A stretch of 64,000 nucleotides of DNA, taken from assembly GCF_024054565.1 (NCBI RefSeq), contig NZ_JAMXLR010000006.1, forward strand, positions 124,001-188,000. The letters run 5' to 3'. Origin of the DNA: Aeoliella straminimaris (GTDB taxonomy: Bacteria > Planctomycetota > Planctomycetia > Pirellulales > Lacipirellulaceae). Made by a program: the position numbers and the translations under genes. Shown here piece after piece: positions 21,286 through 53,159 of this stretch; the first letter of the stretch is position 1; every line of letters begins with the position of its first letter. A model generated the notes under the pieces. That model ran no database searches. It was not told where the DNA came from and saw nothing but the letters and a program-made list of their open reading frames with translations.

Positions 21286-21646
21286 GGGGGCGAACAGGGT
21301 TCGACCGGATAGGCGAAGCGTAAGTGGCGTGTCGTGGTTGATCGGTGGCCCACGTAAAAAGCCGATCAAAACCTTCAATTGCCGAAGGTAACTACGCTTT
21401 GGCTGCCTAGAACTAGGCTGCCCGTTCCCCAGCTGCTCGCCGGAAGCGGCTGACGGAACGTATAACCCCCTCCGGACCGCTGCGGTTCATTGCTGAGCAC
21501 GGCCGCGGTTAAATAAGTTCTCGGCTAGTTCATCGGTAGCCCTGCCTGAGAGGCGCCCGATGAGCGAAATCAAATCTCTCGGGACACACACGTAGAAGCT
21601 TACGTGGAGATATTACGGGACGCGGGTTCGATTCCCGCCGCCTCCA
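21286..21646 (+). ncRNA. ssrA: tmRNA (transfer-messenger RNA)
   Basis: 361 bases. The 5' end GGGGGCG pairs with the 3' acceptor strand CGCCTCC (21639-21645) with one G-T pair, followed by the discriminator A at 21646; CCA is not encoded. A T-arm (GCGGG-TTCGATT-CCCGC, 21622-21638) is intact. A reading frame in the first third ends ...AEGNYALAA then TAG, the usual hydrophobic -ALAA degradation tag. The RNA rescues stalled ribosomes by adding this tag to the unfinished protein. The first tag codon is not certain. The 3' end of the gene overlaps the integrase coding sequence. Confidence 0.93.
21600..21646. other. probable attachment site (tmRNA 3' end)
   Basis: The tyrosine recombinase gene on the minus strand ends at 21600, inside the last 47 bases of tmRNA. 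Integrases of genomic islands commonly recombine at the 3' end of tmRNA and leave the tmRNA intact. The other copy of this 3' segment, expected at the far end of the island, was not found in the rest of the window. Confidence 0.65.
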
Positions 21647-22943
21647 CTTTGTCACTTGTTGCCAACTGGCGACGATCAGCGTCAAAACCCTTGCCTCGGC
21701 AAGGGTTTACGCGTTTCTGGAGATTCTCTTCGGTGTCAGACGAAGTCATCCCATGCCCCTTGGCGCCGCAAAAAGTGCAGCGCATTTGCAGCGCGCCAGA
21801 TTTTGGCAGCGCTGCAAGAGTGGCGGGTTCTACCCTCCTTTGAGGTGTCGGCAGGTTTGCGACGGCCTTGGCCTGGTCGCTAAGGCCAATGTGCGTGTAT
21901 TTCATCGTCATGGTCACGTCAGAGTGTCGCGCCAGCTCTTTGGCCTCCGGCAGAGACACGCCATTCCGCAGAAGTTCGGTGATGTGCGTGTGGCGACCAG
22001 CGGCATGGAAGTCCGCTATTCCCTCCTCTGTCTTGTAGGCGATACCGACCCGCTCCAGGTCCTTCTTCACCATGAGCCACGTCTTCTTTCGCTCCAGTCG
22101 AGGAAATAGTTTCTCAGACGGCTTGAGTCCTTTTAGCCAGCTTTCGAGCAAATTGACGAGATCGGGGTGTAGCGGCAGGACATCTTTGCGGCGGTGTTTG
22201 GAGCACGCCGCTTCTACAGTGACTGTAGCTGGACTGACGTCTAGCACAAAGCTCCTCGGCGTCAGGCTGGAGAGCTCTTTCCTCCTTAGGCCCGTCATGT
22301 AGGAAAGCAGATATACTTTGGCCCTCTGCTCGCCCGATAGGCCCTGGATTCGCTTACTACTCGACCGAGCCGACTCGACTAGCTCATATACCTCCTCCGA
22401 GGTCAAAGCCCGACGGGGATGTCGCACGTCAGTTGCAGTGTTAAGACGCTCTAAGCGCACAAGTGGGCTCGCTAAGAGCCGTTTCGTAGTCACACACCAG
22501 TAGCAGAATGCGTCCATGGCCTGCAGATAGTGATTGTAGGTGCGATGCCCTAAATTCTCCGCTTTCCGCAGCTTGCGAAGATAGCTCTGGACCTCCTCTG
22601 CCTCGATAGCTCCAAGGGTTTCAAAGCCACATCCCTCTACTACGCGGCGGACACGAGCCATAGTGAGCTTCACGTGCTTTTCGGTATTGTCGGAGAGGCT
22701 TTCTTCGAAGGCCGACAAGTGCTCATGGATTGGGGCAGACCGATGCGTGGCTACGCGATCCTGCGACGGATCGATGAGACCCGTGGCTCGTTGCCTTGCT
22801 TCGGATTCGAGCTTTGCTGCAAGTTCCTCCGTCAATCCCTTGTCGGTAAAGCCCCGCACTGTGCGGCGTTTACCTAGGTGATCAACGTACTGGATCAGGT
22901 ACGGCTCGTTGCGTCGCTTACTGCGTTTGAAAATAGAAGCCAT
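21600..22943 (-). CDS. tyrosine recombinase / integrase
   Basis: 447 residues from the ATG at 22943, with AAGGAG seven bases upstream. The catalytic core is clear: TGLRRKELSSL (first catalytic Arg), a HAAGRHTHITELL block (second His/Arg), and LARHSDVTMTMKYTH containing the nucleophile Tyr. The N-terminal 160 residues contain the SAM-like core-binding domain (FEESLSDNTEKHVKLTMARV). It would cut and rejoin DNA at an attachment site, here most likely the 3' end of tmRNA. The last 15 residues (EAAGIEPASRNIST) are encoded by the opposite strand of tmRNA, so the present C-terminus is set by the integration site. Its partner gene sits two bases upstream. Confidence 0.92.
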   Translation of the reverse strand: MASIFKRSKRRNEPYLIQYVDHLGKRRTVRGFTDKGLTEELAAKLESEARQRATGLIDPSQDRVATHRSAPIHEHLSAFEESLSDNTEKHVKLTMARVRRVVEGCGFETLGAIEAEEVQSYLRKLRKAENLGHRTYNHYLQAMDAFCYWCVTTKRLLASPLVRLERLNTATDVRHPRRALTSEEVYELVESARSSSKRIQGLSGEQRAKVYLLSYMTGLRRKELSSLTPRSFVLDVSPATVTVEAACSKHRRKDVLPLHPDLVNLLESWLKGLKPSEKLFPRLERKKTWLMVKKDLERVGIAYKTEEGIADFHAAGRHTHITELLRNGVSLPEAKELARHSDVTMTMKYTHIGLSDQAKAVANLPTPQRRVEPATLAALPKSGALQMRCTFCGAKGHGMTSSDTEENLQKRVNPCRGKGFDADRRQLATSDKVEAAGIEPASRNIST

Positions 22944-22945
22944 GC

Positions 22946-23188
22946 TTATCTCCTTGATCGTCCATTGTCGCCGTCTTGCTGCGGCGGACAACCTTCCGCA
23001 ATCCAGTTTTTGATTTCGTCAACTCGCCATCGAACAGTTCCAGCCAAACGAACTGGCTCTGGGAGCTGTCTCGCACTTCGCATACGCCATAAAGTACGTG
23101 TAGAAATTTGCATCATGCGAGCCAGATCACCTGCCGGGATGAGCAGGGATTCTTGAGCTGTGGCTGAAGGTTCCTGGGGTATCGCCAT
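22946..23188 (-). CDS. excisionase-like / AlpA-type HTH protein
   Basis: 80 residues from the ATG at 23188 (AGGAG six bases upstream; an upstream Met at 23206 is less well placed). The sequence LIPAGDLARMMQISTRTLWRMRSARQLPEPVRLAGTVRWRVDEIKNWI is the winged-helix MerR/HTH_17 pattern of excisionases and AlpA regulators. It ends two bases before the integrase start and is co-transcribed with it. It probably sets direction of integrase recombination or regulates it. Confidence 0.85.
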   Translation of the reverse strand: MAIPQEPSATAQESLLIPAGDLARMMQISTRTLWRMRSARQLPEPVRLAGTVRWRVDEIKNWIAEGCPPQQDGDNGRSRR

Positions 23189-26400: not shown

Positions 26401-26554
26401 CGTGTGCGAAGAACGACCTCAGATCTTCGGCCAACGCTGGATGTTGGGCGATTAGCTCTTCACGGTCGACGTGCACACCCTCATCGAGCTTGCGCAGGTA
26501 TTCGGCAAGAACCTGCTCGAGTTCGGAATGTGCGTGGTTGCCTGTGGGGCTCAT
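23402..26554 (-). CDS. Ser/Thr protein kinase with TPR repeats, membrane-bound
   Basis: 1050 residues from the ATG at 26554 (a TTG three codons earlier is possible). A zinc-ribbon-like pair CPQC...CESC lies at about 81-104. The kinase domain (about 128-395) has all key parts: GMGGFG glycine loop, VAVKIP lysine, HRDLKPANIM, DFGLA, GTPAYMSPEQ and DVYSLGVILFQLL. A single membrane helix at about 416-438 is followed by about 10 TPR-like units (for example EDINSLVSLFGLANSYTALGQHDKA) in the region from 530 to 900. Such kinases are abundant in planctomycetes. It is divergent to the HTH gene and the defence-like cluster, with 177 bases between, so it may be an upstream sensor or be unrelated. Confidence 0.92.
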   Translation of the reverse strand: MSPTGNHAHSELEQVLAEYLRKLDEGVHVDREELIAQHPALAEDLRSFFAHEERLWPAAEAAETATLKHDSTPGRRLRIRCPQCHAPQELAADCPLSDLICESCGSHFSLIDNPRSTRSADSLTEMGRFELIERLGMGGFGSVWKARDKELDRTVAVKIPRRSDMDADETEKFLREARASAQLRHPNIVSVHEVGREGDTVFIVSDLVRGITLGDWLTGQQLSSPEAAEVCAKIADALHHAHEQGVVHRDLKPANIMMDGAGEPHLMDFGLARREVGEVTVTIDGQVVGTPAYMSPEQAQGESHAADRRSDVYSLGVILFQLLTGELPFRGNVRMILHQVINAEAPSPRKLNATIPKDLETITSKCLEKDPGKRYQTANDVSDELHRLLRGEPIVARPVGRFARAFRWAGRNKSVATAAAVAIASLVGGATLSLLFALDSRRKAADAIDARNLAQASEKRTVAVLDFLEDRVLAAARPEGQDGGLGREVTLRQAINAAMEDVRIRFVDQPLVEARLRNTLGASFLYLGESELALEQYSEARQLYEEHLGPEDINSLVSLFGLANSYTALGQHDKANSLYEETVELRKGKLGVDDPDTLRSTNGLANNYLRLGRIKDALQLHQSTLERRRQVLGSNDPDTLNSMNNVANCYYNIGETGKAAQLQEETLQATRATLSESHPQTLRIQNDLANSYDVLGRDNDAMALREQTYALMKVQLGLEHYLTRRSMNNLARSYESIGRFDEAVALYEQALNAWKQNPSNYDKDTVNTVRALTNAYLRTNQHQSAIELLEQVLAAIPTSLQRTRDEAECLGTLVGLYLRMSRAADAKSLLEEFASEFQPGDGRYWIEPVFQAIADRMPALEASVEVANDIDLEHAWTPLERLIFAELILLDGQNERAAEQIRRAIADGGKSRFYQKSLGWALYALGDKEAAEHTFRNLLAPLGQPAKGGTTDYDLANGDRNQWTAAYFLQWVSTEEYVNQWTKLQPENQRQDSFVWFYVGQRNELDGQIEDAEEAYRKSVETANYYVGMPRLHYFSEYRLRQLDRVSPSR

Positions 26555-26731
26555 TATCCGCAAGTCGGCATGTGCCGATTTAGCTGCACGATAGTGCCTT
26601 GGAACCTCACCGCCTTAGTGCGGCGCCGATCAGAAACGTTCTGTGTACTGGGTGGTGTCATCAATTGTGCCGGTTTGGTAAGGTTAAGCAACCCTTTTGG
26701 GGAGTCCGACCGAAATCTCGGAAGAAGTGTA

Positions 26732-26950
26732 ATGTCCAAATTAGACGGCTACTTGCGGATCACAGAGGCCGCGGAGTACCTCGGCGTCTCGCCAAATACT
26801 CTGCGGAATTGGGGGCGAAGCGGCAAGCTGGCTGAGCGCCGGCATCCAATCAATGGTTACCGACTGTACTCTCGCGAAGAACTAGATCACATCCTCAGCG
26901 AGGCTCAACAACCGAAGTCAACTAGCCTGCGCAAGAAGAAACCCCGTTAG
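26732..26950 (+). CDS. MerR-type helix-turn-helix protein
   Basis: 72 residues from the ATG at 26732, with GGAAG upstream. The sequence YLRITEAAEYLGVSPNTLRNWGRSGKLAERRHPINGYRLYSREELDHIL is a complete MerR/HTH_17 winged helix, ending in a basic tail (LRKKKPR). It is the first gene of the plus-strand cluster, 78 bases before the P-loop ATPase gene. A role as regulator of the following genes is inferred from position only; it has no ligand-binding domain. Confidence 0.85.
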   Translation: MSKLDGYLRITEAAEYLGVSPNTLRNWGRSGKLAERRHPINGYRLYSREELDHILSEAQQPKSTSLRKKKPR

Positions 26951-27028
26951 AAAGTCATCCTGCAGCGGTATCTCAAGAGCAATCCAATCCCCTCGGCAGA
27001 AGACCTTAATCTGGCTGGTGGCAAACAC

Positions 27029-28867
27029 ATGGCGAACAACCCGTACCTCGACCAGTTCCTTATGTTCTACAGCCAGTCTGACGCTGGCAACGGACTGACG
27101 CGCGGCCTTGAGAATGATTTGGCACGTCGGACCTATGTGCCCACCAAGCTCGATCGTGAACTTCGAGACGCGATTCTGGATTGCACGTATCGCCTCGTGA
27201 TCCTGACTGGAAATGCCGGTGACGGCAAAACCGCTTTCATTCAGAAACTAGAGGAAGCAGCAGAAGCGACAGGGGCAACAGTATCGCGTCCTGATTCTCT
27301 GGGAAGTCACTTTGAGCTAGGCGGTCGGACGTTCCGGACGTTGTATGACGGTTCGGTTGAAGTTCCAGGCACCACAAATCAAGAAATGTTGGCGAACTTC
27401 TTCCTCGATTTACAAGGGGACGATCCACCCACAGCCAACACGTGCCTCGTCGTTGCGATGAACGAGGGCAAGCTCATTGACTTCCTGTCGCACACAACGC
27501 AGTTCAAATGGCTTAGCCAGCAACTGCTAGAGCATCTCCAGCTCGACTCCCCGCTTTCTGACGACATGGTTCTCGTGAACTTGAACTTGCGGTCAGTCGT
27601 AGACGCCGCTCGCGGTCAAACCGACAGCATCTTTGATCAGATTCTTGATCGGTACGTCGCTGAGGAGTTCTGGACGTCTTGTGACGGGTGCCCTGCCCGA
27701 CACCGATGCCCAGTCAAGTTCAATGTCGACACGTTTCGACTCCGCAGTACAAGTGGGCTCAGTGACAAAGATGCCGAAGAGGTCGAGGAAAGAAACGCCT
27801 CGGCGCGGATCGCCCGATCACGCCTAAAAAGCATATTCCAGATCCTACACTTCCGAAAACGGATTCACGTAACGGTACGCGATCTGAGATCAGTGCTCGC
27901 GTTTACATTGTTCGGCAAGCACACGTGCCAGCAGATCGAGCAAGAGATTCAAGGCGGAAACGCAGACTTCACAGATCGTTACTACTACAACGCCGTTTTT
28001 GATGCGAACGAAAAAGATCGCATCCTCGGCCTCCTACGCGACTTTGATGTCGGACTGGCTTCGTTGCCTATGACCGACAGCCGATTGAGCTTCACGAGGC
28101 CGGGCACCTCCGAGTTTCGCCAACTCTTCTTGCGATTTGACCAAGCTGGGACGCTCGGTCGAACCACCAGCGATGTCGAAGACCTCTGCCGGCTCTACGA
28201 TACCCGTCCAATGAGCCCTGAGCAGCGTACGCAAGACGCCTTAGAGACATCACGAAAGTACGTAGCATCCTTGCGTCGCAAATTGTTCTTTGAAGGCGAT
28301 CAACCGGACGAACAGGGACAACGCAAGTTTCTCTCGCATCTGCTTCCATACGACAACATTGAAAAGTTCATGCGGTTCATCGAGACCAAGACTGACCCCT
28401 CGGGTCAACTCAAGCAATGGATCGTGCTCGCGATCAGTCGAAGCGAGAGCATCTACGACGAACAACGCGGCCGTGAGAATATCTGCATCCGCACTCGCCA
28501 TGACGCAGACACGGCCGTGAAGGCCTACTTCACGTACCCAGCCGGACACTTCAACCTTGAAGTAGAGGAGCCGCCAGCGCAAGCCACGTACGTAGAATTC
28601 CTGCCGACGAGTGTCCATCTGCGGCATCACGAACGCAACATCATGCTGGAAATATCACTGGATCTCTACGAAATGTTGATGCGTATCCGCGACGGCTACG
28701 TTCCCGCGGCGGGAGAGATGAGGGCGTTTTTCTTGAACTTGCTGATGTTCAAGAAGCAGCTCATGTCTCTGCCCTCCGATCGCCTGCTCCTTTCGGGTTC
28801 CGACTACAATCTTTACCAAATGTCACGGACGCCGCAGAACGGTGTTTCCATCGGCGTGCCTTCGTGA
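27029..28867 (+). CDS. P-loop ATPase, DptF-like by size and layout
   Basis: 612 residues. A Walker A motif, GNAGDGKTA, lies at residues 61-69 (LVILTGNAGDGKTAFIQKL). A candidate Walker B strand with a polar end, TCLVVAMNEG, follows at about 137-146. A four-Cys cluster (CDGCPARHRC and a nearby Cys) sits at about 215-226. The rest is helical. The size, the Walker site close to the N-terminus, the N-E-G loop and the Cys cluster recall DndF/DptF, the first protein of the phosphorothioate-dependent restriction set, but I cannot confirm homology. The next gene starts 11 bases after its stop, so the two are co-transcribed. Confidence 0.6.
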   Translation: MANNPYLDQFLMFYSQSDAGNGLTRGLENDLARRTYVPTKLDRELRDAILDCTYRLVILTGNAGDGKTAFIQKLEEAAEATGATVSRPDSLGSHFELGGRTFRTLYDGSVEVPGTTNQEMLANFFLDLQGDDPPTANTCLVVAMNEGKLIDFLSHTTQFKWLSQQLLEHLQLDSPLSDDMVLVNLNLRSVVDAARGQTDSIFDQILDRYVAEEFWTSCDGCPARHRCPVKFNVDTFRLRSTSGLSDKDAEEVEERNASARIARSRLKSIFQILHFRKRIHVTVRDLRSVLAFTLFGKHTCQQIEQEIQGGNADFTDRYYYNAVFDANEKDRILGLLRDFDVGLASLPMTDSRLSFTRPGTSEFRQLFLRFDQAGTLGRTTSDVEDLCRLYDTRPMSPEQRTQDALETSRKYVASLRRKLFFEGDQPDEQGQRKFLSHLLPYDNIEKFMRFIETKTDPSGQLKQWIVLAISRSESIYDEQRGRENICIRTRHDADTAVKAYFTYPAGHFNLEVEEPPAQATYVEFLPTSVHLRHHERNIMLEISLDLYEMLMRIRDGYVPAAGEMRAFFLNLLMFKKQLMSLPSDRLLLSGSDYNLYQMSRTPQNGVSIGVPS

Positions 28868-28878
28868 GGTAGGTAAAC

Positions 28879-30639
28879 ATGGCAAAGAAGAAAGCGACTA
28901 GCCCGCTTACGCGGAATCAAAAACTGTTTCAAATGCCGCACCTGTACCCCGTCGACGCGAACAACCTCGACGTGGATGAGGCGATGAGCCGCTTGTTTAT
29001 CTACTTGCGTACGGGCGGGCGGCTGATTCGGCGTTCTGACAAAGTTGTCTTCGACGCCAAGCTGTGTGAAGACGCGGAAACGCCTAAAGCTGTCCTTGAG
29101 GCTGTCCTCGAAGAAAACGGTCATCTGTTTGATGGTGTTGGCGACGACCGTCGCGATCTGCTTTCTTCGTGGCTAGAGTCGCACTTCGCGATCATGTCTC
29201 GTCGCGGTAAGTCGGCCGGTGGCGCGTACCGCATGGCTGGTCTTCGACCACTGCATTTTATGGTTATCAAACTGTTCAACCCCAATGTGAAGGGGCAAGA
29301 CCGTCGTTTGAGCCAGTTCTTTTATAACGCACTCAAAGATGACCCAACGCTGACATCTGCTCCGGATTCGCTTATGCGTCAGTTCTTTGAGATTGGCGCT
29401 CGGCGACATGGGGACAATGACTATCGTGTCGACGAAAACGCACTGAAGCAGCTTGCCACGGATCACAAGCTCGACATCGAGTTGCTATTCCTTCTTCGGC
29501 TACTCCAGCCCTTTGATACCGACAAATACAGCACAAAGAAGGATGACCAGGTCGCCGACACCGAGTTTCTATGCCCTGAGCAGATTGACTTAATGAAACA
29601 GGATCTCAAGCTGCTGTTTCTCTATAAAGACTGCATCCCGCGCCGTGAACTCATCAATTACATGACCACCTTGATGGTGTTCCATGCGGCATTGTATTTC
29701 TACCAGATCGTTCGCATCGCCAACCACATGATCGAGCACGGCAAGCTGCCCGAGCCGCAAGGTGAACAGCCACAACCAGGTGACCCCCGCAGTCACGCAC
29801 CCTTCACGCTAGACATTTTTTGCGACATGGCGGGAGGTCATCACGAACAAGTCGATTCAATTGCCAAGCAACGGTTTACCGAACATTTCAAAGACGTCGA
29901 GAAGTATTTCAAGTCAGCATATCTGATGAAGAAGTTGGAGGAGTTCGCGGGTGGATACCTAACTCCCGACCAGAAAAAGGGCGGCGGAAAGGCGTACATT
30001 GAGCTGTTGCTCAAGGGCTATCTGAATCACAAGGACATCGACGGTTACTTCGCTAGAGACATTCAAGCGATTCGTCAGGCAGGCTACGACGAAGAAAGCG
30101 GTGAGTTCAATCCCGACGTTGAACGGATCATCGCCATCTGCAACGGCCGCGGGCTGAATCGTCTGCAAACCTTCGTCGAGATTCTTTACCACTTCCAGTA
30201 CAGCACGCTCCGAGAACAGCATCGCAAGCTGATTTCTGGGCTGTGCGGCAACGAGTTGGATCGAGGCTTCATGGCAGGCCGAGGGCGTGCTCGCCGGAAG
30301 TACGTGATCGGGAACGAACTGTTGGAAGTGTTGATTCAACTCGCAGCGCTGGAAAAACGCGAAAGCGACAACAAATGGCAAACGCGGCCGATGCCCATCC
30401 GCAAGTTCGTTGATTGGCTGGGTGGTCGCTACGGATTGCTAATCGACACGCTTGGTCCCAACGGAGAAGAGAGCGAGCAGAACAACCGTGCTCTGGCGGC
30501 CAACTACGAGGCACTCAAAACAAGGCTGCGGCAACTTGGATTCTTTACGGATTTGGCGGACGCCTCGAACTCCCAGGTGATTGAACCGCGGTTCCACATC
30601 GTCAGTGGTGAAATGGAAGATACGCTCTCCGGAGCTTGA
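28879..30639 (+). CDS. protein of unknown function in defence-like operon
   Basis: 586 residues from the ATG at 28879. I do not recognise a domain. The N-terminus is basic (MAKKKATSPLTRNQKLF), and most of the protein is predicted helical, with Leu- and Asp-rich stretches such as DHKLDIELLFLLRLLQPFDTDKY and LMKQDLKLLFLYKDCIPRRELINYMTTLMVF. Short patterns such as FCDMAGGHHEQVDS may mark a turn, but no catalytic motif stands out. It lies between the P-loop ATPase and the methyltransferase with 11- and 13-base gaps. By order it would take the place of DptG in a Dpt-like system; this is inference. Confidence 0.55.
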   Translation: MAKKKATSPLTRNQKLFQMPHLYPVDANNLDVDEAMSRLFIYLRTGGRLIRRSDKVVFDAKLCEDAETPKAVLEAVLEENGHLFDGVGDDRRDLLSSWLESHFAIMSRRGKSAGGAYRMAGLRPLHFMVIKLFNPNVKGQDRRLSQFFYNALKDDPTLTSAPDSLMRQFFEIGARRHGDNDYRVDENALKQLATDHKLDIELLFLLRLLQPFDTDKYSTKKDDQVADTEFLCPEQIDLMKQDLKLLFLYKDCIPRRELINYMTTLMVFHAALYFYQIVRIANHMIEHGKLPEPQGEQPQPGDPRSHAPFTLDIFCDMAGGHHEQVDSIAKQRFTEHFKDVEKYFKSAYLMKKLEEFAGGYLTPDQKKGGGKAYIELLLKGYLNHKDIDGYFARDIQAIRQAGYDEESGEFNPDVERIIAICNGRGLNRLQTFVEILYHFQYSTLREQHRKLISGLCGNELDRGFMAGRGRARRKYVIGNELLEVLIQLAALEKRESDNKWQTRPMPIRKFVDWLGGRYGLLIDTLGPNGEESEQNNRALAANYEALKTRLRQLGFFTDLADASNSQVIEPRFHIVSGEMEDTLSGA

Positions 30640-30652
30640 AAGTGATACGTCT

Positions 30653-32851
30653 ATGGCAAAGAAGAAGAAAGCAGTACGAAAGAAAAAGGGAGCGGACGCT
30701 ATCCTGACTGCCGATCCGTCCGTTGACGATGGTGATCTGCCGGAAGGGCAAGCTGTCGACAGCGTGCAACTCGACGAAGGCCAGGTCGTCGATCTTGTCA
30801 CCGGCGAGGTCGTCAAGCTCAACGATCTGGAGCTGATCATCCAAGAAGAGCAACGGAAGCTGCTTGAGGAGTTTGGCTACCCCGAAGAACAGAAGGCGGA
30901 TCTCATTCGGCGTAAGTTTCGGGTTAGGCCGAAACAACTCAAGGCGAAAGCATTTCCGCTGGTCGTCTTGCGTTCCAACGGCGGTGATTCGGACGTCGAC
31001 GATCAGGACCGCGTCTACATTCTGATGGACATCCAGAAGCCCAAGGTCAAAGCGGAAGACTCGAAGAAGGGAGCCGAGGGCCTTGCCGAGTTCCTTCGGG
31101 ACACGCCCGGTGCGGAGTACGCGGTGTGGACCAACGGCACCGATCGTGTGGTGTATTGGAAGGAAACGGGGCGCATCAAGATTCGCACGCGGTTGATCAA
31201 CGACATCCCGCGTTTCGGCCGTGGCCCCGAGGACTGTTTTGCGCCGGGCAAACAAGCGCTACGAGCTGCAAGCGGCCTTTCGCTCCGACAAGCCTTTCAG
31301 CGTTGCCACGATTATGTCTATGCCAATCGAGGCGGGTCGAACGAGACGATCTTCTGGGAGTTCCTCAAGATCGTCTTCGCCAAGATTCAAGATGAGCGTT
31401 GCATACAGAAGGCCGAATCAGAAGGAGCTGAGTACGAGCGCCGTTTTCGCATTGCCAGTCTGGAAGAACGGAACGACGCGGAGAAGTCGCAGCGAGTCAA
31501 AGATCGCGTGGAGGAACTTTACGCCGAAGTCCGGCAGCTTTATCCAGAGCTGTTTGCTCAGCAGGTTGAAGAAGTCGACCTCGCACCACGAATCCTGACT
31601 TACGTCGTTGCCCAACTGGCCGATTACGACTTCCTCAACTCGTCGGTCGATGTGAAGGGCGAAGCCTACGAAGCGATCGTGGGTAAGAACTTGCAGGGAA
31701 CGAGGGGCGAGTTTTTCACGCCGCGTAACGCGGTGAAGATGGGCATCCGGATGCTGGATCCTGAGCCGGGCATGAAGTGCATCGACCCGGCTTGTGGAAC
31801 AGGCGGATTCATCGTGGTCATACTCAATTACATGGCGGCGAAGATCGCCAGACGCATGGAGAGTGAGGGCAAAGATCCGAAAGCCAAGGACCTGAGTGAA
31901 TACAACCACGAGCTGAAGCTCGCCTCCCAGCGCATCTTCGGCCTCGACATCAACCCTAACCTCGTTCGTGTCGCCCGCATGAACATGGTGATGAACAACG
32001 ATGGTCAAGGCGGGATCACGCACTTGGGTTCGCTGGATCGGCCTGAGAGCTGGGAGTTCCCACCGGGTAAGACAAAGACTTACCAGTCGGATGGAAAATT
32101 CAAAGACGTTGATATTGCGAGTTACTTCCGTGACGAGTTGCAGGAGGGAACCTTCGACATTTGTGCGTCCAATCCTCCCTTTGGAACAAAAATCAAGATC
32201 GACTCGGAAGCGATCCTTTCCCAATACGATCTCGCCCGACGTTGGAGCTACGATGAAGAACGCGACCTTTGGTCCGCCACACCGGCACTCCAAGCAGGCG
32301 TGTCGCCGGAAATCCTATTCTTGGAGCGGTGCGTCAAGCTACTGAAGCCAGGCACAGGCCAGCTCTGCATCGTTCTTCCAGATGGACTTCTCGGCAATCC
32401 GGACGACGAGTACATCCGCGTTTGGCTGATGCGGCACTGTGAGGTACTCGCGCTGGTGGACATGCCGGTGGAACTCTTCCTTCCCAAGGTTGGGATGCAA
32501 ACGCACCTCGTGTTTCTTCGTCGCAAGACTACGGATGAGATGAACGAAGAGAGTTTGGGTGGGGAGTTGAAAGATTACCCCATCTTCATGGCAATCGCGA
32601 AGAACGTCGGCAAGGATCGTCGCGACAATCAGATTTTCAAGCGAGACCGAGAGGGACGGATACTTGATCACTTCAGGAACGCGAACGGGCAAGATCTTCA
32701 CGGAGCCTATTTGAAGGCGTCGGTTCTCGACTTTCTACCTTTCGTCGATCAATACGGACGCATGGTTGACGATGATCTGCCATTCATTGCCAAGGCGTAC
32801 CACGACTTCTTGTCGGCAAAGGAGGAGGGAACGGTTGACTATGAGCGATGA
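30653..32851 (+). CDS. hsdM: type I-like DNA adenine methyltransferase (HsdM) with HsdR-like N-terminus
   Basis: 732 residues from the ATG at 30653; the frame is open from 30581 but that part overlaps the previous gene. Residues about 55-180 resemble the N-terminal nuclease domain of type I restriction subunits (RRKFRVRPKQLKAKAFPLVVLR ... YILMDIQKP ... YAVWTNGTDRVVYWK). The usual E-I-K-K-P of the nuclease core is D-I-Q-K-P here. The rest is N6-methylase: GTRGEFFTPRNAV, DPACGTGGF (SAM-binding motif I), GLDINPNLVRVARMN, and the catalytic SNPPFG. It should methylate adenine in a target set by the specificity subunit. The next gene overlaps its last 11 bases. Confidence 0.87.
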   Translation: MAKKKKAVRKKKGADAILTADPSVDDGDLPEGQAVDSVQLDEGQVVDLVTGEVVKLNDLELIIQEEQRKLLEEFGYPEEQKADLIRRKFRVRPKQLKAKAFPLVVLRSNGGDSDVDDQDRVYILMDIQKPKVKAEDSKKGAEGLAEFLRDTPGAEYAVWTNGTDRVVYWKETGRIKIRTRLINDIPRFGRGPEDCFAPGKQALRAASGLSLRQAFQRCHDYVYANRGGSNETIFWEFLKIVFAKIQDERCIQKAESEGAEYERRFRIASLEERNDAEKSQRVKDRVEELYAEVRQLYPELFAQQVEEVDLAPRILTYVVAQLADYDFLNSSVDVKGEAYEAIVGKNLQGTRGEFFTPRNAVKMGIRMLDPEPGMKCIDPACGTGGFIVVILNYMAAKIARRMESEGKDPKAKDLSEYNHELKLASQRIFGLDINPNLVRVARMNMVMNNDGQGGITHLGSLDRPESWEFPPGKTKTYQSDGKFKDVDIASYFRDELQEGTFDICASNPPFGTKIKIDSEAILSQYDLARRWSYDEERDLWSATPALQAGVSPEILFLERCVKLLKPGTGQLCIVLPDGLLGNPDDEYIRVWLMRHCEVLALVDMPVELFLPKVGMQTHLVFLRRKTTDEMNEESLGGELKDYPIFMAIAKNVGKDRRDNQIFKRDREGRILDHFRNANGQDLHGAYLKASVLDFLPFVDQYGRMVDDDLPFIAKAYHDFLSAKEEGTVDYER

Positions 32852-34397
32852 TTGCCGGTTTCAGTCAGCGTTTGCGACAGCCGAGGAGTTCTCTTCGATT
32901 GAAGTGTTCGCAGCAGCGTCGACGGAAGTGTATTCCGGAGCACATCGTCTAGACGGCGAGTACTATGGTGACGATGGTTATCGTGCAAAGCACTCGTTGG
33001 AGCGGTCCGGATTTCCACGCGGACAACTTCAAGATACGTCTGCTGTCTTTCAGCCGGGCCTTTGCGGCCCAAACAGCGAGTCTCAGGCTCACCGAGGAAC
33101 TTCGCAGCGTTCGCCGCGAAGCCGTGGGGGTCGGACATACGTCGATGACAAGGAAACCGGCGTCCTGTTTCTTACTACCGCTGACATGCTTCAGGCCCGG
33201 TTCGATTCTCCTCGATACATCTCGCGAGTTTTGTCATCTTCCGTTTTGAGGATTCAGCCGGGGTGTATTCTCATCTCGGGTTCGGGCACCATTGGCAATA
33301 CTGTCCTTGCGACTGACGATTTTTCCGATGCGTACGTCTCGCATGATGCCTTTAGAGTTACTCCCAATGATCACAGCGATTTGGGTATGCTCTACTGCTT
33401 CTTTCAAAGTAATGCTGGCCAGTTCTTGTTGACTCGGAACAAGTCCGGAGGTGTTGTAGAACACATTTACGAGCACGATCTCAATACGCTTGTTATTCCA
33501 TTGCTGCCGCGGGCGTTTCGCAAAGAGCTTACCCGCCTGATCGACGAATCGTGTCACCTGCGAGTAAATGCTAACAAACTGATCGACGAGGCGATCGCCG
33601 ATGTTCAGCATCAGTGCTACTTGCCAGACCTGAGCCATTTCATGTCTGGTCGCACGCCAGACGCGGAGCCGCTCACGTTCATCCACTCAGCCAAAGCGAG
33701 GCTTTTTCCAGAAGACGCACAGTTCGGCGAACGCCGGCTCGATGCGACCTACCATGAGCCAGCCGCTGTCGCCCTCGCCAAATACATCCTTTCGCACGAC
33801 CGCGGTTGCCAACTCGGTCAAGTGCTGACGGCCGTACGAAACTCAACACTCCGAAAGCGGAACTATGTTGACGATCCGGAACTCGGCGTGGCGCTGATCG
33901 GTGGAAAGCAGCTCATGCAATGGCGTCCGCAGGGACTGAAATACCTTTCAAGCTCGCTCACCAGAAACCTTGAGAAAGAAACGGTAGAGAGCGGATGGAC
34001 GATTGTGTCCTGTGGCGGAACTCTGGGGCGTTGCCAGTACATTCATCGCAACTTTGAAGGCTGGGCGATGTCCCAGGACGTAATGCGAATCATTCCCGAT
34101 AAGGACAAGATCGCCCCAGGCTTCATCTATGCGTTCCTATCTTCCGCCTACGGTCAGACTCAGATTCACTGTCGAGGATATGGCTCTGTCATCCCGAGAC
34201 TTCGTGACTTTCAGTTCAACACCATTGCCATTCCTGTTCCTGACGACCGGGGAGAGTCGATCCATGAAAAGATCGTTGCGGCATACGAAGCCCGGGGAGA
34301 AGCCCACGACCGTGAAGATGAGGCGTTCAGACTTTTTGATTCGGCAATCGAACGCGGCAGGGCTTATACCGAAGCTGAATGGGGATCGGAGTACTAA
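32841..34397 (+). CDS. hsdS: type I-like specificity subunit (HsdS)
   Basis: 518 residues from the ATG at 32841, which lies inside the end of the methylase gene. Two target-recognition halves are seen. The first contains LTTADMLQ and PGCILISGSGTIGNTVLA then LYCFFQSNAGQFLL; the second contains IGGKQLMQW, SGWTIVSCGGTLGRCQYI and GFIYAFLSSAYGQTQI. Each half ends in a conserved helical spacer (TRLIDESCHLRVNANKLIDEAI and IHEKIVAAYEARGEAHD). Such proteins dictate the two-part DNA sequence that the methylase modifies. No HsdR-type translocase is encoded nearby. A patch at about residues 70-95 (CGPNSESQAHRGTSQ) is unusual for the family. Confidence 0.82.
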   Translation: MSDDCRFQSAFATAEEFSSIEVFAAASTEVYSGAHRLDGEYYGDDGYRAKHSLERSGFPRGQLQDTSAVFQPGLCGPNSESQAHRGTSQRSPRSRGGRTYVDDKETGVLFLTTADMLQARFDSPRYISRVLSSSVLRIQPGCILISGSGTIGNTVLATDDFSDAYVSHDAFRVTPNDHSDLGMLYCFFQSNAGQFLLTRNKSGGVVEHIYEHDLNTLVIPLLPRAFRKELTRLIDESCHLRVNANKLIDEAIADVQHQCYLPDLSHFMSGRTPDAEPLTFIHSAKARLFPEDAQFGERRLDATYHEPAAVALAKYILSHDRGCQLGQVLTAVRNSTLRKRNYVDDPELGVALIGGKQLMQWRPQGLKYLSSSLTRNLEKETVESGWTIVSCGGTLGRCQYIHRNFEGWAMSQDVMRIIPDKDKIAPGFIYAFLSSAYGQTQIHCRGYGSVIPRLRDFQFNTIAIPVPDDRGESIHEKIVAAYEARGEAHDREDEAFRLFDSAIERGRAYTEAEWGSEY

Positions 34398-34400
34398 CAA

Positions 34401-37400
34401 ATGAGCACATCCACAGAGCTATTCCGACTCGACGATGCCGTCGTTGTTGACGAATACGTCGACGCCTTGTTCGGTGAACTGAAGTCGTTTCTCCAAGCGA
34501 AGAACCCTGGCCACTGCCAGCGGATCGACTACCTCCCGTGCGATGTGATGAATCGACTGGGACAGCGATTGGCCGACGACCCCGACTTGCAGTCCGCAAA
34601 GGTGGTCTGCCGTGTTGTGACCGACAAACCCGATCACGCGGACCATGAGCCGTGGGAAACGAGTGGCAGCGGTGCGGTCGCATTTCGAGAAGATGCAACC
34701 TATGGGCGTATCCGCGTGTTCTGCGCGCTGTTCCCGGCTGGAATCCGTCTGGCCGAGGAAGACTCGCTGAATATCGCCACCTTCAAGACCGACGACGCGG
34801 TTAGCTTCAACGTCCGCAAGTGCTTGGACACGCACGTTCGAGCGAAGGTCAATATGTTGCCGGAGGATGAGCGTAAGATCCTGGACGCCATTCTGAAGGA
34901 AGAGTCGGTCAGACAGTTGGACGTGCGACTGAAACTTCGCTACATCCTGTCCGTTCTCGGGCAGAAGGAAGCCAGCAATCAGCCCGTCAACTGGGAAACT
35001 GCTGGAGGGTACCTGTACGAACTACGCATGATTCCCGACTTCAAACTGGAATCGGAGAATCTTCCGGTGCAGCTTACACGCAACCAGATGTGTGCTGCGA
35101 TCTTGAGTGACGGCGATAAGAGCTTGACCCAGAATCTGGATCGACTGGTCGCCGAAAAGGGGCTCGACGACGAAGAGCGGCGTCGGGACCTGGCTGTTTT
35201 TCTGTCTGACAAGGACACGATGCAACCGGACCAGTGGTTGCCGGATATCTGCCACGATGACACTGCTCGTGAAAAGTTGTCTTTCGACGAGTGGCATTTC
35301 AGCGAGCCGACAACTGGCGTCAGCATTGAGCTGAGCCCACTACAAAATCCCAATACGTCCAAGGTCGCCAAAGGCCTGATTTATCAAAACGGTGCGTTGG
35401 TCAATGACGGCAAGAAACCCATTCAGATTCGATGGACCGTCAAGCCGGTTGGCACAAAAGACGTCGGCGGCTATCGCATCTATGTTGTGCGCAACACGGA
35501 AGACGAAGGCGAGGTAGACGTTGTCACGCCCCAGGCACTGTCGGGCAAGCGCAAGTCGTTCATGGTGCCGATCGCCGACAACAATCTGGACGACGACGAG
35601 AAGTGCGTCGTGCGCCTCCGCATCCAGGCTCTGAACAAGAACGGGGTTCCGCTGCAAGATGCCAGTGACGAATCAGAAGAGTTCTGGATCGAGAACGGCG
35701 AGGAGATCACACCCCCACCGCCTGACCGCGGAAAACGCCTTCGTCATTTGAAAGAGGTGTCTTTCCGAGCGACTCACAAAACGGGCAAGGCTTACGATGT
35801 GCGCAGTCGTGGATGGGATGCCAAACGTGACTATATCTATGCCCTTCGACTCACCAACAACGACCGCGGTGATTTGGCACTGAATCCGCTGCTGCGAGAC
35901 CTCGAACGCGAGATCCTGCTCAATCCAAACAACCTTGGCGTCTACGAGGCAAACATTGTTGGGAAGCGAACGGCGCAGCTTGCTGATTTCCACGAAATCG
36001 AACTGCCTGACTCGGTCAACACGATGGCGAACGACTTCTTCGAGGCAAGAAGTGCGTTCTTCACGGCCGTTCGCGAGCTGGAAGATGGAACGGGCGTCGT
36101 GGAGATTGCCGATCTCCACACGGTCATGGATGAGTCGTTGATCTACATTCAGAAGTATGTCGAACTGCTCAAAAAAGTTGCCGAAAAGGTTGGGAACGCC
36201 ACGGGCCCGGGACAAATCAACAACATCCTGCACGATTACTCGGCAGTCATGCGGATCGACACCGTATTGATGAGGATTGGCCCCACAGAGTCCCCAATGC
36301 AGGTTCTCTTGCTCAGCCCCACACATCCCCTGCGGATTCTGTGGCTGTATCAGTACGAGACTTTCGTGGATCAGTGGATTCAGAAGATGACGGGCCGAAA
36401 GCCCGACGAGATCCAGCGGCTGATTTCCGAGGACAGCATCGACAAACTGATCAACCTGAACATCCCCAACGCGATCTCCTGGGAGCAAGGCCAGACTTTC
36501 ATCAACACGGACAACCTGGATCTGTTCTGGAGTGTGTTGCCGAATGGAAACGTGAAGGACTTGCGGACGGCGGTGAACGCAGCCCGGCAAGCTGTGGGGG
36601 CCAGCCGACAAGAGGTCGTCGTTTCAACCGTCACGCCGAAGCAGATTGCCGACAAGATTGAGCGGTATCTCTGTCATCATCCCTACGTACGGTCGCTCAA
36701 GGTCAATGTGATCAATCCAGGCGACGGCGCGTTGTTGTTGGAAGCAATCAAGAGCTTGCTCGGCAAGCCGCTCTACGAGAACCTCAACTTTGACGTGAAG
36801 TTCTTCGCACCAAAGGATACACGGCACGAACTTGTTGGTGATGCGTTCGACGACTTTATGACACAGCGGCGTCCTGAAGAATGGACGTATGGTGGAACCT
36901 TGTCGGAGACGGAAGAGCGACTGCTGCAACCGAATGAAAACCCATTGTTTCCCAAGTTGGTTTACGCGAAACACTCCATCGCAGAGTTGTTGAACGACAA
37001 TGGGGGGCGATTTGAGTCGCACTTGACATTCCTGATCGACTACTTTGGGACCAGTATCGCCACCCGACCTCACACGGAACTGATGGGAAGTTCCTCGCTG
37101 CACAACCTCCTCGCCGAGTATGTCACCGACTACTCGGCCGGTGCGGCAACGGCAACATGGTCACGCCTGATCGCACCCAACGAGTGCCCTGAGTTGGCGA
37201 GCGACGGAAACACAAAGCGATTGTTTCAATCGCACGACACGTTGTCCCATCTATCTGCGTGCTTCTACGACTGGGCGGACAGCCTTGAGAAGTACACCAC
37301 GGTTCAGCTTGAGCTGACAGATTCTGGTGGAAGGCATCACCTCAAGTTGCTTCGGCAGGTTCATTTGATTTCGGACTGGGTCTTCACGATAGATCGCAAC

Positions 37401-40400
37401 TTCGGCATCGAATACTACGACGATCCGAAGCGGCCAGCTGGCGGGGAATCGAAGGGCTATTTGATCGACTATACGCCAGAGTTCCTGGATGCCGTCGCTC
37501 ATCGCCTAATCATCTCGACCTATCACCAGCAGGAGATTGAAAGCATATTGCGACACGGTTTTGCCAATCTGCTAACCACAGCGGACGGCGAGGAGCCGGT
37601 TATTGCCAGTCACACGATTGGACGCATCCTTCAAATCCTGAAGTCCGTCTCCGGGAAGCTCGCGCTGAAGTTGATCAACAACCCAAACCAGGCCCAAGAA
37701 GTCATCGGCTTGGCACTAACGAGACTGTCTCTTGAACGCGACGACCGACTTCGTGGTCGGGTTTTGATTCCGGTAGACAGCCACATTGACCTTTTCTACC
37801 AGAACAAAAAGGAACTTGAAAACAGCGAACTCACGCTGAAACGCAATGATCTAATGCTGGTCGAACTTGCGGGATCGAAAATGACCGTTGATCTGATCGA
37901 GGTCAAGAATCGCAAGCACTCCAGCCCGCAAGAGCTGCTCGATCTTCAAACGCAGATTTGCGAAAAGAACTCCAACACCGAACAGCATTTTCGCGCACAC
38001 TTCGTGGGCTCTGGTGAAACGAAGCGTTTCGATTCCGACATCAAGAACAAAGAACTGGCGAATATCTTGCTGTTCTACTTCGATCGTGCCCGGCGATATG
38101 GTTTGTTTGAGACATCCGAGTTGGATGAAACGAGTAGCTCCACTCGAATCCAGGCTTTCTACAAGGGCATTGAGGCCGTCGAGGCTGGAGCGTGTGAAGT
38201 CTCATTTCGCCATGAAGGATTCATTTTCAATGGCTCCGCTCTGACGAACCAAGAAGATCGCGACATCAACAACAATGACATACACATCGTAGGCAGGGCT
38301 GGGATCAGCGAGTTCTTGGGTCTGGTTATCGACGAAGAAGAAGGGACGACGGATACATCAGGAGATGAACCTGGCGGCGATCCAGGAGACGGGACGGGAC
38401 CTGGACCTGAGCCGGAACCGTCCCCCGGGGGAATCGGGGGGCAAACGGGTTCACCCGAACCCAGCCCTTCCGAAACTGACACGTCGGGTGATCCTGAAGT
38501 TGCCGTAGTGACAGAAGAAACCGGCACAGTGCCACCTGACGAACCAGCGGTCTCTGGGGAGACCAAAGCAACATCAGAAGAACCCACGCCTTCTACTGAG
38601 GGCAAGAAGGGTGTTAGCACTCCAGAAAATCCGAAGGACACTTTTGTTGCTTCCGGTGATCTTGGAGCCGCAGAGGTCAACATTCAACTCGGCAAGAACT
38701 GTGTCACCGGCCAGGAAGTCTATTGGAATCCGCAGACGAAGAAGCCGCGTCGTCTGACCAACCAGCATCTGCTCGTAGTAGGCAAGAGCGGGTCGGGTAA
38801 GAGCGAAACGACCAAAGCGCTCATCTGGGAACTCGATCGGCTTGGCGTCCCTTCGATCATCCTTGATTATCAGGGCGAGTACGCTTTTGGCGAGTTCGCC
38901 GAAGCTGTTGAACCACAGAAGTTCGACGTTATGAATGGCCTGCCGGTCAATCCGTTTGAACTTCCCTTTGATCCGATCGCCAATCGAAAACGTCCTCCGA
39001 TCGAGATGATCTTTGGACTCGCGGACACATTGAACACCGTCTTCAGTGGTTCCGGGGATATCCAGCTTGGCATCCTTCGTGAGGCGATCGAAGCCTGTTA
39101 CGTCCAAGCAGGGTTTGATTTTCACAATCCCGCGACGTGGGAACTTGAACCGCCCACGTTGGAAATGCTTGAGGCCGTACTTGATCACATGGCACAAGAC
39201 CACGGCACGCAAGTTCGCAATCTTCAAATCCGCCTCCAACCGCTCTTCAAGAGTGGCATCTTCAAGCAACAGAACGCGGGTTACAGCTTCGACGAACTGT
39301 TTCAACGTACCAGCGTGATCCTTATGACATCGGGCATCAAAGACCTAATGCTCGCCGCCAGTAGGTTCATCCTGGAGAAGGTCTATTCCACGATGCTGAT
39401 GCAAGGCGTCACCAAACAGCTTCGCGTGATGGTCGTCATCGACGAGGCACACAAGCTGTGTGGCGATGAGACGATTATCAGCTTGGTGAAGGAAGCGAGA
39501 AAATACGGCCTTGGGTTGATCCTTTCGTCTCAGGAAACACGTGACTTTCATGGCTCTGTCTTCGCGAATACGGGTACGCTCATCGCACTTGGACTGGAAG
39601 ATGCCGACGCCACAGTGATGGCAAAGCACCTCGGGTTGACCGACAAGAAGCAGCAGACGGGTGCCAAGGAACTAATACTGAGCCAGTCGAGCGGCCAAGC
39701 TCTCGTCCGATCCCAGCATTTTCTGCCATACGCACAGGTGCAGATTCGGTCGTTTGAAGACCGGGTTGAAGATGCCGAGCCCGTTCCGAAGAAAAAACCG
39801 ACAGGGCTGGGAACTCCATCGGGGAGCGATCCGAATCCGAATCCTCCTAAATCTTTTCATGGTTACAGGCTAGTCAAACCCCTCGATGTTGCAGGGATGT
39901 CAGAGGCGTATATCGCCGAAAAGACCGGAGATGGAAGCCAAGTCTTCCTAAAGCGAGTCCGCACACACTCAGCGGATAAAGCCGCCCTGGAACGCGAGGT
40001 GAGGATTTATGAGAAGTTGTTACGACTGCAACCCAAGTATGTCGCGTCCGTTCTGGACTACTTACGTGACGATGACTATGTAGCGATCGTGACCGAGTGT
40101 GCAGACGGCGGCGACCTTCAGACGTTTATCGAAAGCCAAACGCATGGACGCGGTCTCAGTCCGAGCGATGCTAAGGCCATCGCTCTCAACCTAGCGATGG
40201 CCTTGCAGGAGCTTCACGATAACGAAGTTGTCCACCGTGACTTGAAGCCTCGCAATGTGCTGTGCTTCGGTGGTACGTGGAAACTAGCTGACTTTGGCAT
40301 CGCCAAAAACCTCGGTCGGCTTGGTACTCTCAAGACGTTTCAGCAGCATGGTACCCGCGGCTATGCCGCACCAGAACAGTTCCAGGGGGTGGCCGCTCAT

Positions 40401-40583
40401 CCTAGTGCTGACGTGTATTCTTTTGGAAAGATACTTATTTTCTTGCTAACCGGGCAAACTGATGTAGATTTTGTCCCCTACAGTGATTGGAGCCGAATCG
40501 CCAAGTTATGCATATCGGCGAGCCCGCAGAATCGACTTTCGATTGAAGCCGTCGTTGACGAGCTTAATTCGATTGTTACCTAG
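34401..40583 (+). CDS. giant HerA/FtsK-like ATPase fused to a Ser/Thr kinase
   Basis: 2060 residues, three bases after the specificity gene. Residues 1 to about 1300 are mostly unrecognised and include VDLIEVKNRK at about 1162-1171, which has the D...E-x-K pattern of a nuclease core. A Gly/Pro/Ser/Glu-rich linker runs from about 1310 to 1415. Next is a HerA/FtsK-type ATPase: VGKSGSGKSETT at about 1460 (Walker A), ILDYQGEY, VVIDEAHK at about 1677 (Walker B) and ILSSQETRDF. The C-terminal 240 residues form a Ser/Thr kinase with HRDLKPRNVL, DFGIAK and GTRGYAAPEQ. The kinase glycine loop is weak (VAGMSEAY), but a LKR lysine is present. The size and the HerA part recall DptH, which has no kinase. 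Confidence 0.78.
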   Translation: MSTSTELFRLDDAVVVDEYVDALFGELKSFLQAKNPGHCQRIDYLPCDVMNRLGQRLADDPDLQSAKVVCRVVTDKPDHADHEPWETSGSGAVAFREDATYGRIRVFCALFPAGIRLAEEDSLNIATFKTDDAVSFNVRKCLDTHVRAKVNMLPEDERKILDAILKEESVRQLDVRLKLRYILSVLGQKEASNQPVNWETAGGYLYELRMIPDFKLESENLPVQLTRNQMCAAILSDGDKSLTQNLDRLVAEKGLDDEERRRDLAVFLSDKDTMQPDQWLPDICHDDTAREKLSFDEWHFSEPTTGVSIELSPLQNPNTSKVAKGLIYQNGALVNDGKKPIQIRWTVKPVGTKDVGGYRIYVVRNTEDEGEVDVVTPQALSGKRKSFMVPIADNNLDDDEKCVVRLRIQALNKNGVPLQDASDESEEFWIENGEEITPPPPDRGKRLRHLKEVSFRATHKTGKAYDVRSRGWDAKRDYIYALRLTNNDRGDLALNPLLRDLEREILLNPNNLGVYEANIVGKRTAQLADFHEIELPDSVNTMANDFFEARSAFFTAVRELEDGTGVVEIADLHTVMDESLIYIQKYVELLKKVAEKVGNATGPGQINNILHDYSAVMRIDTVLMRIGPTESPMQVLLLSPTHPLRILWLYQYETFVDQWIQKMTGRKPDEIQRLISEDSIDKLINLNIPNAISWEQGQTFINTDNLDLFWSVLPNGNVKDLRTAVNAARQAVGASRQEVVVSTVTPKQIADKIERYLCHHPYVRSLKVNVINPGDGALLLEAIKSLLGKPLYENLNFDVKFFAPKDTRHELVGDAFDDFMTQRRPEEWTYGGTLSETEERLLQPNENPLFPKLVYAKHSIAELLNDNGGRFESHLTFLIDYFGTSIATRPHTELMGSSSLHNLLAEYVTDYSAGAATATWSRLIAPNECPELASDGNTKRLFQSHDTLSHLSACFYDWADSLEKYTTVQLELTDSGGRHHLKLLRQVHLISDWVFTIDRNFGIEYYDDPKRPAGGESKGYLIDYTPEFLDAVAHRLIISTYHQQEIESILRHGFANLLTTADGEEPVIASHTIGRILQILKSVSGKLALKLINNPNQAQEVIGLALTRLSLERDDRLRGRVLIPVDSHIDLFYQNKKELENSELTLKRNDLMLVELAGSKMTVDLIEVKNRKHSSPQELLDLQTQICEKNSNTEQHFRAHFVGSGETKRFDSDIKNKELANILLFYFDRARRYGLFETSELDETSSSTRIQAFYKGIEAVEAGACEVSFRHEGFIFNGSALTNQEDRDINNNDIHIVGRAGISEFLGLVIDEEEGTTDTSGDEPGGDPGDGTGPGPEPEPSPGGIGGQTGSPEPSPSETDTSGDPEVAVVTEETGTVPPDEPAVSGETKATSEEPTPSTEGKKGVSTPENPKDTFVASGDLGAAEVNIQLGKNCVTGQEVYWNPQTKKPRRLTNQHLLVVGKSGSGKSETTKALIWELDRLGVPSIILDYQGEYAFGEFAEAVEPQKFDVMNGLPVNPFELPFDPIANRKRPPIEMIFGLADTLNTVFSGSGDIQLGILREAIEACYVQAGFDFHNPATWELEPPTLEMLEAVLDHMAQDHGTQVRNLQIRLQPLFKSGIFKQQNAGYSFDELFQRTSVILMTSGIKDLMLAASRFILEKVYSTMLMQGVTKQLRVMVVIDEAHKLCGDETIISLVKEARKYGLGLILSSQETRDFHGSVFANTGTLIALGLEDADATVMAKHLGLTDKKQQTGAKELILSQSSGQALVRSQHFLPYAQVQIRSFEDRVEDAEPVPKKKPTGLGTPSGSDPNPNPPKSFHGYRLVKPLDVAGMSEAYIAEKTGDGSQVFLKRVRTHSADKAALEREVRIYEKLLRLQPKYVASVLDYLRDDDYVAIVTECADGGDLQTFIESQTHGRGLSPSDAKAIALNLAMALQELHDNEVVHRDLKPRNVLCFGGTWKLADFGIAKNLGRLGTLKTFQQHGTRGYAAPEQFQGVAAHPSADVYSFGKILIFLLTGQTDVDFVPYSDWSRIAKLCISASPQNRLSIEAVVDELNSIVT

Positions 40584-53022: not shown

Positions 53023-53159
53023 GTCGAAATTGTACCGAGAAGTGCCCTCGGACTCAAAGTCTGATGATGACCCCCAGGAAGTCATCCGTGAAACAACAAG
53101 ACGCCCCCGAATTTCGCACTCTCGGCTGCCGATAAATCCGATTGCGATCTGCTAGTTGG

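Follow-up and report, generated by a model that had tools for sequence, protein, structure and literature searches.

The operon at positions 26732-40583 of a 64,000-nucleotide stretch of the Aeoliella straminimaris genome (contig NZ_JAMXLR010000006.1, positions 124,001 to 188,000; the whole stretch is hereafter called the window) raises the question of what a type I-like DNA modification pair is doing, without HsdR, among ATPases and a protein kinase. A first-pass annotation of this DNA had offered two leads, i.e., the methylation-associated defence system (MADS) and DndFGH genes with HsdM and HsdS inserted among them. Both leads turn out to be right, since MADS itself contains a DndFGH-type module, namely MAD6C-7-8 (MAD6C being the C-terminal portion of MAD6). 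The locus is likely, in our judgement, a variant MADS carried on a mobilizable island inserted at the transfer-messenger RNA (tmRNA), combining marking by MAD2 and MAD5, a DndFGH-type restriction complex and an accessory kinase. Canonical MADS, comprising MAD1 to MAD8, was reportedly described by Maestri et al. in Cell Host Microbe in 2024.

Gene coordinates confirmed six plus-strand genes with every frame intact, and the sizes, gaps and overlap first noted all hold, the spacing in gene order being 78, 11 and 13 bases, an 11-base overlap and 3 bases:

26732..26950, plus strand: MAD1-like helix-turn-helix (HTH)/excisionase-type regulator, 72 residues (PADLOC mad1, HTH_17)
27029..28867, plus strand: DndF/SspF-like P-loop protein with a Cys (Zn-type) insert, 612 residues (MAD6 C-terminus, SspF)
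28879..30639, plus strand: MAD7, putative DndG-like DNA-binding subunit, 586 residues (NCBIfam MAD7, AlphaFold model)
30653..32851, plus strand: MAD2, N6-adenine DNA methyltransferase, 732 residues from ATG (NCBIfam MAD2, motifs)
32841..34397, plus strand: MAD5, HsdS-like specificity subunit, 518 residues from ATG (NCBIfam MAD5)
34401..40583, plus strand: MAD8, DndH-like giant protein with a C-terminal kinase, 2060 residues (Piscinibacter MAD8 homology, single open frame)

The ATG starts of the methylase gene at 30653 and of the specificity gene at 32841 are the likely ones. Profile matches to HTH_17, N6_Mtase, Methylase_S, and HerA/DUF87 plus Pkinase uphold the domains assigned earlier (HTH, P-loop with Cys cluster, HsdM, HsdS, HerA and kinase), and profile scans of the operon detected no HsdR-like helicase-nuclease gene, as had been claimed for this modification pair.

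Match to the MADS and Dnd families

A Piscinibacter gummiphilus plasmid locus (L004), whose eight consecutive genes pass all eight NCBIfam MAD cut-offs, served as the yardstick for canonical MADS. Against these models the window MAD7 scores 446.7 bits, above the cut-off of 410, and MAD2 scores 713.8 bits (E 1.8e-214), 6 bits short of its cut-off of 720, while MAD5 reaches 333.8 bits over two matched stretches (E 1.7e-99; cut-off 400). The N-terminus of the giant protein scores 58.9 bits, below the MAD8 cut-off of 175, and the giant protein aligns with Piscinibacter MAD8 over 1296 columns at 25% identity (E 1e-78). The HTH protein matches PADLOC mad1 (E 5.8e-12) and HTH_17 (45 bits), with 12.9 bits against the NCBIfam MAD1 cut-off of 80. 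The MADS lead was thus borne out, with one score over the cut-off, strong MAD2 and MAD5 scores, a weaker MAD8 score and a mad1 match, although the gene order differs from the canonical one. A domain scan of canonical MAD6 showed a NERD domain, two kinases and then a DndF part; the 612-residue protein is equivalent to residues 806-1380 of the 1,411-residue Piscinibacter MAD6 (33% identity, E 8e-87), and its gene corresponds to the C-terminal ~600 residues of canonical MAD6, without NERD and kinases. Homologues of MAD3 and MAD4 were not found in the operon; both are also absent from many canonical loci and are thus optional. In MAD2, the methylase motifs DPACGTGGF and NPPF are intact, and the N-terminal domain is HsdR-N-like without an intact nuclease motif. 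A nuclease in this head was considered and rejected, the catalytic residues not being conserved across 40 homologues.

On the Dnd side, the 612-residue protein matches the PADLOC models SspF (E 5.4e-31) and DndF (E 2.3e-6), its P-loop GNAGDGKT and its cysteines C218, C221 and C227 are invariant, and a sequence search of the PDB gave chance matches only. The AlphaFold model of MAD7 (mean predicted local distance difference test score, pLDDT, 79.7) aligned with the DndG structure 7exx over 395 residues (Z 19.1, root-mean-square deviation 5.9), the next match having Z 2.7. This match came from the second aligner only, direct Foldseek of the same model giving nothing with E < 0.001. MAD7 is accordingly modelled with the DndG fold. 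The giant protein MAD8 is divided as follows:

36615..37496, plus strand: methyltransferase-like (Rossmann) domain, approx. residues 739-1032, predicted inactive (low-confidence model)
37563..38327, plus strand: PD-(D/E)XK nuclease domain, approx. residues 1055-1309, with D1150, E1167 and K1169 (conserved motif, model segment)
38679..39779, plus strand: HerA/FtsK ATPase of DndH type, residues 1427-1793, with P-loop GKSGSGKS and K1467 (7es4 DptH, DndH profile)
39858..40580, plus strand: Ser/Thr protein kinase domain, residues 1820-2060, with K1851, HRD D1947 and DFG D1964 (Pkinase)

For MAD8 residues 560-1400 the model has low overall confidence (mean pLDDT 51), and only its better nuclease part was relied on, with caution. 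In this weak model the Rossmann domain finds methyltransferases as its top matches (Z about 9), and the nuclease segment matches McrC (Z about 7). The D...ExK motif is kept in all 45 MAD8 homologues that cover the site. A restriction nuclease is thus present, though not as HsdR, in the form of a PD-(D/E)XK domain inside the giant protein, a domain that the first-pass annotation had omitted. The HerA domain matches DptH 7es4 (E 3.6e-16) and the PADLOC DndH model (141 bits). In DndH, too, a methyltransferase-like fold precedes the nuclease fold (PMC10853773).

Because of the profile matches, the DndG-fold model, the DptH structure match, the DndH-like domain order and the D...ExK motif, MAD6C, MAD7 and MAD8 are the counterparts of DndF, DndG and DndH, and the lead of DndFGH with HsdM and HsdS inserted is borne out. 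By homology, the correspondence should extend to canonical MADS. DNA restriction is assigned to DndFGH, with nickase and translocase activity (PMC11662687). The locus might instead be regulatory or decayed, methylating DNA after its restriction function was lost; it has no known phenotype and sits on an island, where genes decay. However, the six frames are intact, as is every motif of the nuclease, the HerA domain, the P-loop, the methylase and the kinase, and we give this explanation little credence.

The variant lineage and the kinase of the window copy

The DndF-like protein was used to scan 84,980 species genomes, of which the best 80 loci were listed, so that all frequencies are lower bounds. 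At least 12 of the listed loci show the order 6C-7-2-5-8 as far as their contigs reach, with a free MAD6C gene of 591-643 residues. Their hosts belong to Phycisphaerales, Geobacteraceae, Herbaspirillum, Halochromatium, Magnetococcales, Terriglobia, Chloroflexi, Ignavibacteriae, Bacteroidota (three) and an Atribacteria bin; the operon spans two contigs in Halochromatium (L012) and Terriglobia (L014), and in L020 the last part of MAD8 is on a separate contig. A thirteenth relative, the viral-collection contig L119, was the one variant locus that the DndF-like alignment found among viral contigs; MAD7 by itself gave no match there. At least 13 loci besides the window, representing at least seven phyla, therefore have the variant order, and this recurrence shows that the arrangement is not due to chance. 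The first-pass annotation had staked its reading on similarity to Dnd or Mad proteins and on a recurring gene neighbourhood, both of which were found. In the remaining readable loci among those listed, MAD6C is fused to the kinase head and the genes follow the canonical order; throughout the set, the variant order, a missing kinase head and the type of HerA go together without exception.

The HerA domain of the window MAD8 shares 40-69% identity with that of the variant relatives and matches a Rhizobium DndH-like HerA with E 3e-31, whereas its best match to a canonical MAD8 HerA has E 0.004 over at most 60 residues. With PADLOC, the HerA domains of variant MAD8 score 136-167 bits with DndH models, whereas canonical MAD8 matches mad8, with no DndH match in its HerA. 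The exchange looks like what has been described for DndH, in which different HerA domains were captured repeatedly (PMC10853773).

In each of the trees of MAD6C, MAD7, MAD2, MAD5 and MAD8, all 14 variant copies lie beyond one branch, with Shimodaira-Hasegawa-like approximate likelihood ratio test (SH-aLRT) values of 99, 99, 100, 91 and 100 in the five gene trees. Since the copies are united in five trees while the host phyla are mixed, the module appears to be passed on horizontally as one unit. Identity to the window copy separates two subclades, one at 54-65%, which includes the window, and one at 36-41%. Among 398 genomes of the host's class, the MAD7 matches were confined to the window itself, a single canonical locus and a single remote locus of Dnd type. 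Judged by its sequences, the operon belongs to an apparently unlabelled sister branch of MADS.

The same trees bear on the explanation that a stand-alone DndFGH merely lies beside an unrelated HsdM/HsdS pair, with no joint function. DndFGH is often decoupled from modification genes (PMC10853773), and on a Rhizobium plasmid a related NERD-kinase-F, G, H set has no HsdM/S next to it. However, every variant locus that can be read through has MAD2 and MAD5 placed after MAD7 and before MAD8, and their trees divide variant from canonical exactly like the other three, which makes such an accident of neighbourhood very unlikely.

The Pkinase domain (121.7 bits) is fused in frame to the C-terminus of MAD8, after HerA, via a proline-rich linker. 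When the MAD8 of 13 relatives was followed to its end, 12 stopped a few residues past HerA; that of L020 (C-terminal part on contig L103:1-1515) carries, where the window copy has its kinase, an unrelated stretch of about 170 added residues, for which no family model scored over its cut-off. None of the 13 has a kinase in MAD8, and the flanks that were read in the 12 variant genome loci yielded none either, so the kinase is unique to the window copy among the 14 variant copies. It is thus not a standard part of the lineage but was gained by the window copy; the first-pass annotation was correct in placing a kinase beside the methylase pair, but not in so far as it implied a regular component of the system.

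Two other origins of this kinase were weighed. In the first, it would be the MAD6 kinase moved to MAD8, and the locus a plain domain-shuffled MADS with the same parts, since canonical MAD6 always bears kinases and the window operon has its kinase elsewhere. However, 12 relatives have no detectable kinase in the gene and the flanks read, and the MAD8 homologue of L119 is likewise without one, which places the loss of the kinase before the window fusion. In the kinase tree, moreover, the closest neighbours of the window domain are two kinases from the same genome and not the MAD6 kinases, but its branch is long and the support weak. Relocation is thus not favoured and is regarded as unlikely. 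In the second, the tail would have arisen by a chance gene fusion and would do nothing for the system, in keeping with its occurrence in a single copy and with the about 60 comparable kinase domains of the host genome. This is a real possibility, but a doubtful one: the frame is open through the proline-rich linker, the K, HRD and DFG motifs are intact, and the different extension at the same place in L020 suggests that the MAD8 end accepts add-on domains.

As a separate observation on canonical loci, two tandem MAD2-type methylase genes are common among them (L022, L026, L028, L032, L034, L037-L040, L044, L045, L049, L051, L058, L059, L063, L065, L067 and L117), and these may form a further MADS subtype.

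Proposed mechanism and the island setting

N6-adenine methylases with HsdS write two-part N6-methyladenine (m6A) motifs in type I systems. By family, MAD2 and MAD5 would likewise write m6A at a two-part target in the host DNA. MAD7, with its predicted DndG fold, would read the DNA, the DndF-like protein would bind nucleotide and gate the complex, and MAD8 would translocate DNA by its HerA motor and cut with its PD-(D/E)XK domain, such that unmarked DNA is attacked while the marked host DNA is spared. The operon thus most likely restricts DNA lacking its own m6A mark, a step that we infer, as we do any anti-phage effect. The kinase, the least certain part, would be an added accessory that probably regulates the complex or serves as a back-up effector phosphorylating host or phage proteins.

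Several points weigh against this proposal. The variant is known from sequence, and with MAD2, MAD5 and MAD8 below the curated cut-offs, homology is certain while equal function is not. A review calls the restriction mechanism of MADS unknown (PMC12904381), so the putative cutting step of the MAD8 complex is drawn from the Dnd comparison. As for the kinase, its role is argued from the fusion, and its gene neighbourhood is unique.

On balance, we lean slightly towards a broader reading, in which MADS overall would be a DndFGH-type machine that reads m6A where Dnd reads phosphorothioate, bacteria at large would harbour a second MADS lineage that has no kinase and has exchanged its HerA, and the window copy would have regained a kinase at a new position. 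If the kinase-free lineage is real, the NERD/kinase head would be a dispensable, replaceable accessory, and reconstitution could start from the lineage as a naturally minimal system with five core genes, with the window copy as a natural test of adding a kinase. Mapping MAD6C-7-8 onto DndF-G-H, together with the conserved MAD8 nuclease motif, provides MADS with a concrete, testable cutting step. Defence finders based on canonical MAD6 and MAD8 models may overlook or mislabel the variant lineage.

The operon lies on a 99-kb mobilizable island, flanked by 26-base repeats and inserted at the 3' end of the tmRNA (window 21286-21650), which the integrase adjoins:

21625..21650, no strand: left attachment repeat at the 3' end of the tmRNA (exact 26-base repeat)
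21600..22991, minus strand: tyrosine integrase of the island (Phage_integrase 62.8 bits)
contig C66:244806-244831: right attachment repeat, 99,181 bases downstream (exact 26-base repeat)

Further in, the island encodes a TrwC relaxase and a TrwB coupling protein. The operon has a GC content of 54.2% vs. 59.3% upstream of the tmRNA, in keeping with a foreign origin. Extra copies of the same tmRNA end occur in several related genomes, so that the site looks like an insertion hotspot; an empty-site comparison gave no empty site, the same-genus genome having its own insert at the tmRNA and a dissimilar right flank. Other island genes include an RND efflux pump and a P-type ATPase, a methionyl-tRNA synthetase-like gene (window 51409-53085, minus strand), and an AddA-like helicase-nuclease with a PD-(D/E)XK AddB-like partner (window 40832-46626, minus strand, convergent to the operon), the AddA-like gene having no close second copy in the genome. 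Divergent from the operon is a large Ser/Thr kinase with TPR repeats (window 23402-26563, minus strand), one of the about 60 kinase domains, and just outside the island is an Abi_C abortive-infection domain protein (window 19060-19887, minus strand).

Comparison with known systems

The operon shares with type I restriction-modification the HsdM-like methylase and the two-part HsdS, whereas type I systems have HsdR and this operon does not. MAD2 finds its best matches among MADS and type II models, with RM.BsaXI among solved structures, and an ordinary type I system was rejected on both counts. The earlier view that this is no normal restriction-modification locus is thus correct, the operon being a rearranged relative of MADS. 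With type 2 bacteriophage exclusion (BREX), the link is the NERD-kinase-kinase head common to PglW and canonical MAD6, which is exactly the part absent from the window variant; no PglZ or PglX-type gene was found in the operon.

Canonical MADS and the window share homologues of MAD2, MAD5, MAD7, MAD8, the C-terminal half of MAD6 and a MAD1-like HTH protein within one operon. However, the canonical order is 1-2-(3-4)-5-6-7-8 and that of the window 1-6C-7-2-5-8, the NERD-kinase-kinase-DndF protein of canonical MADS is a free DndF-like gene in the window, the optional MAD3 and MAD4 are not in the window operon, and the window MAD8 has a different HerA domain and adds the C-terminal kinase. DndFGH/SspFGH (DptFGH) shares with the window the order of the F, G and H homologues, the DndG fold as modelled, and the methyltransferase-like/PD-(D/E)XK/HerA layout of H, although the sequence similarity is remote and HsdM/S sit between G and H in the window. 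No DndABCDE/SspABCD phosphorothioation genes were found among the nine proteins scanned (23.4 to 46.6 kb of the window). The partner of DndFGH/SspFGH is phosphorothioation, whereas that of the window module is an N6-adenine methylase with HsdS.

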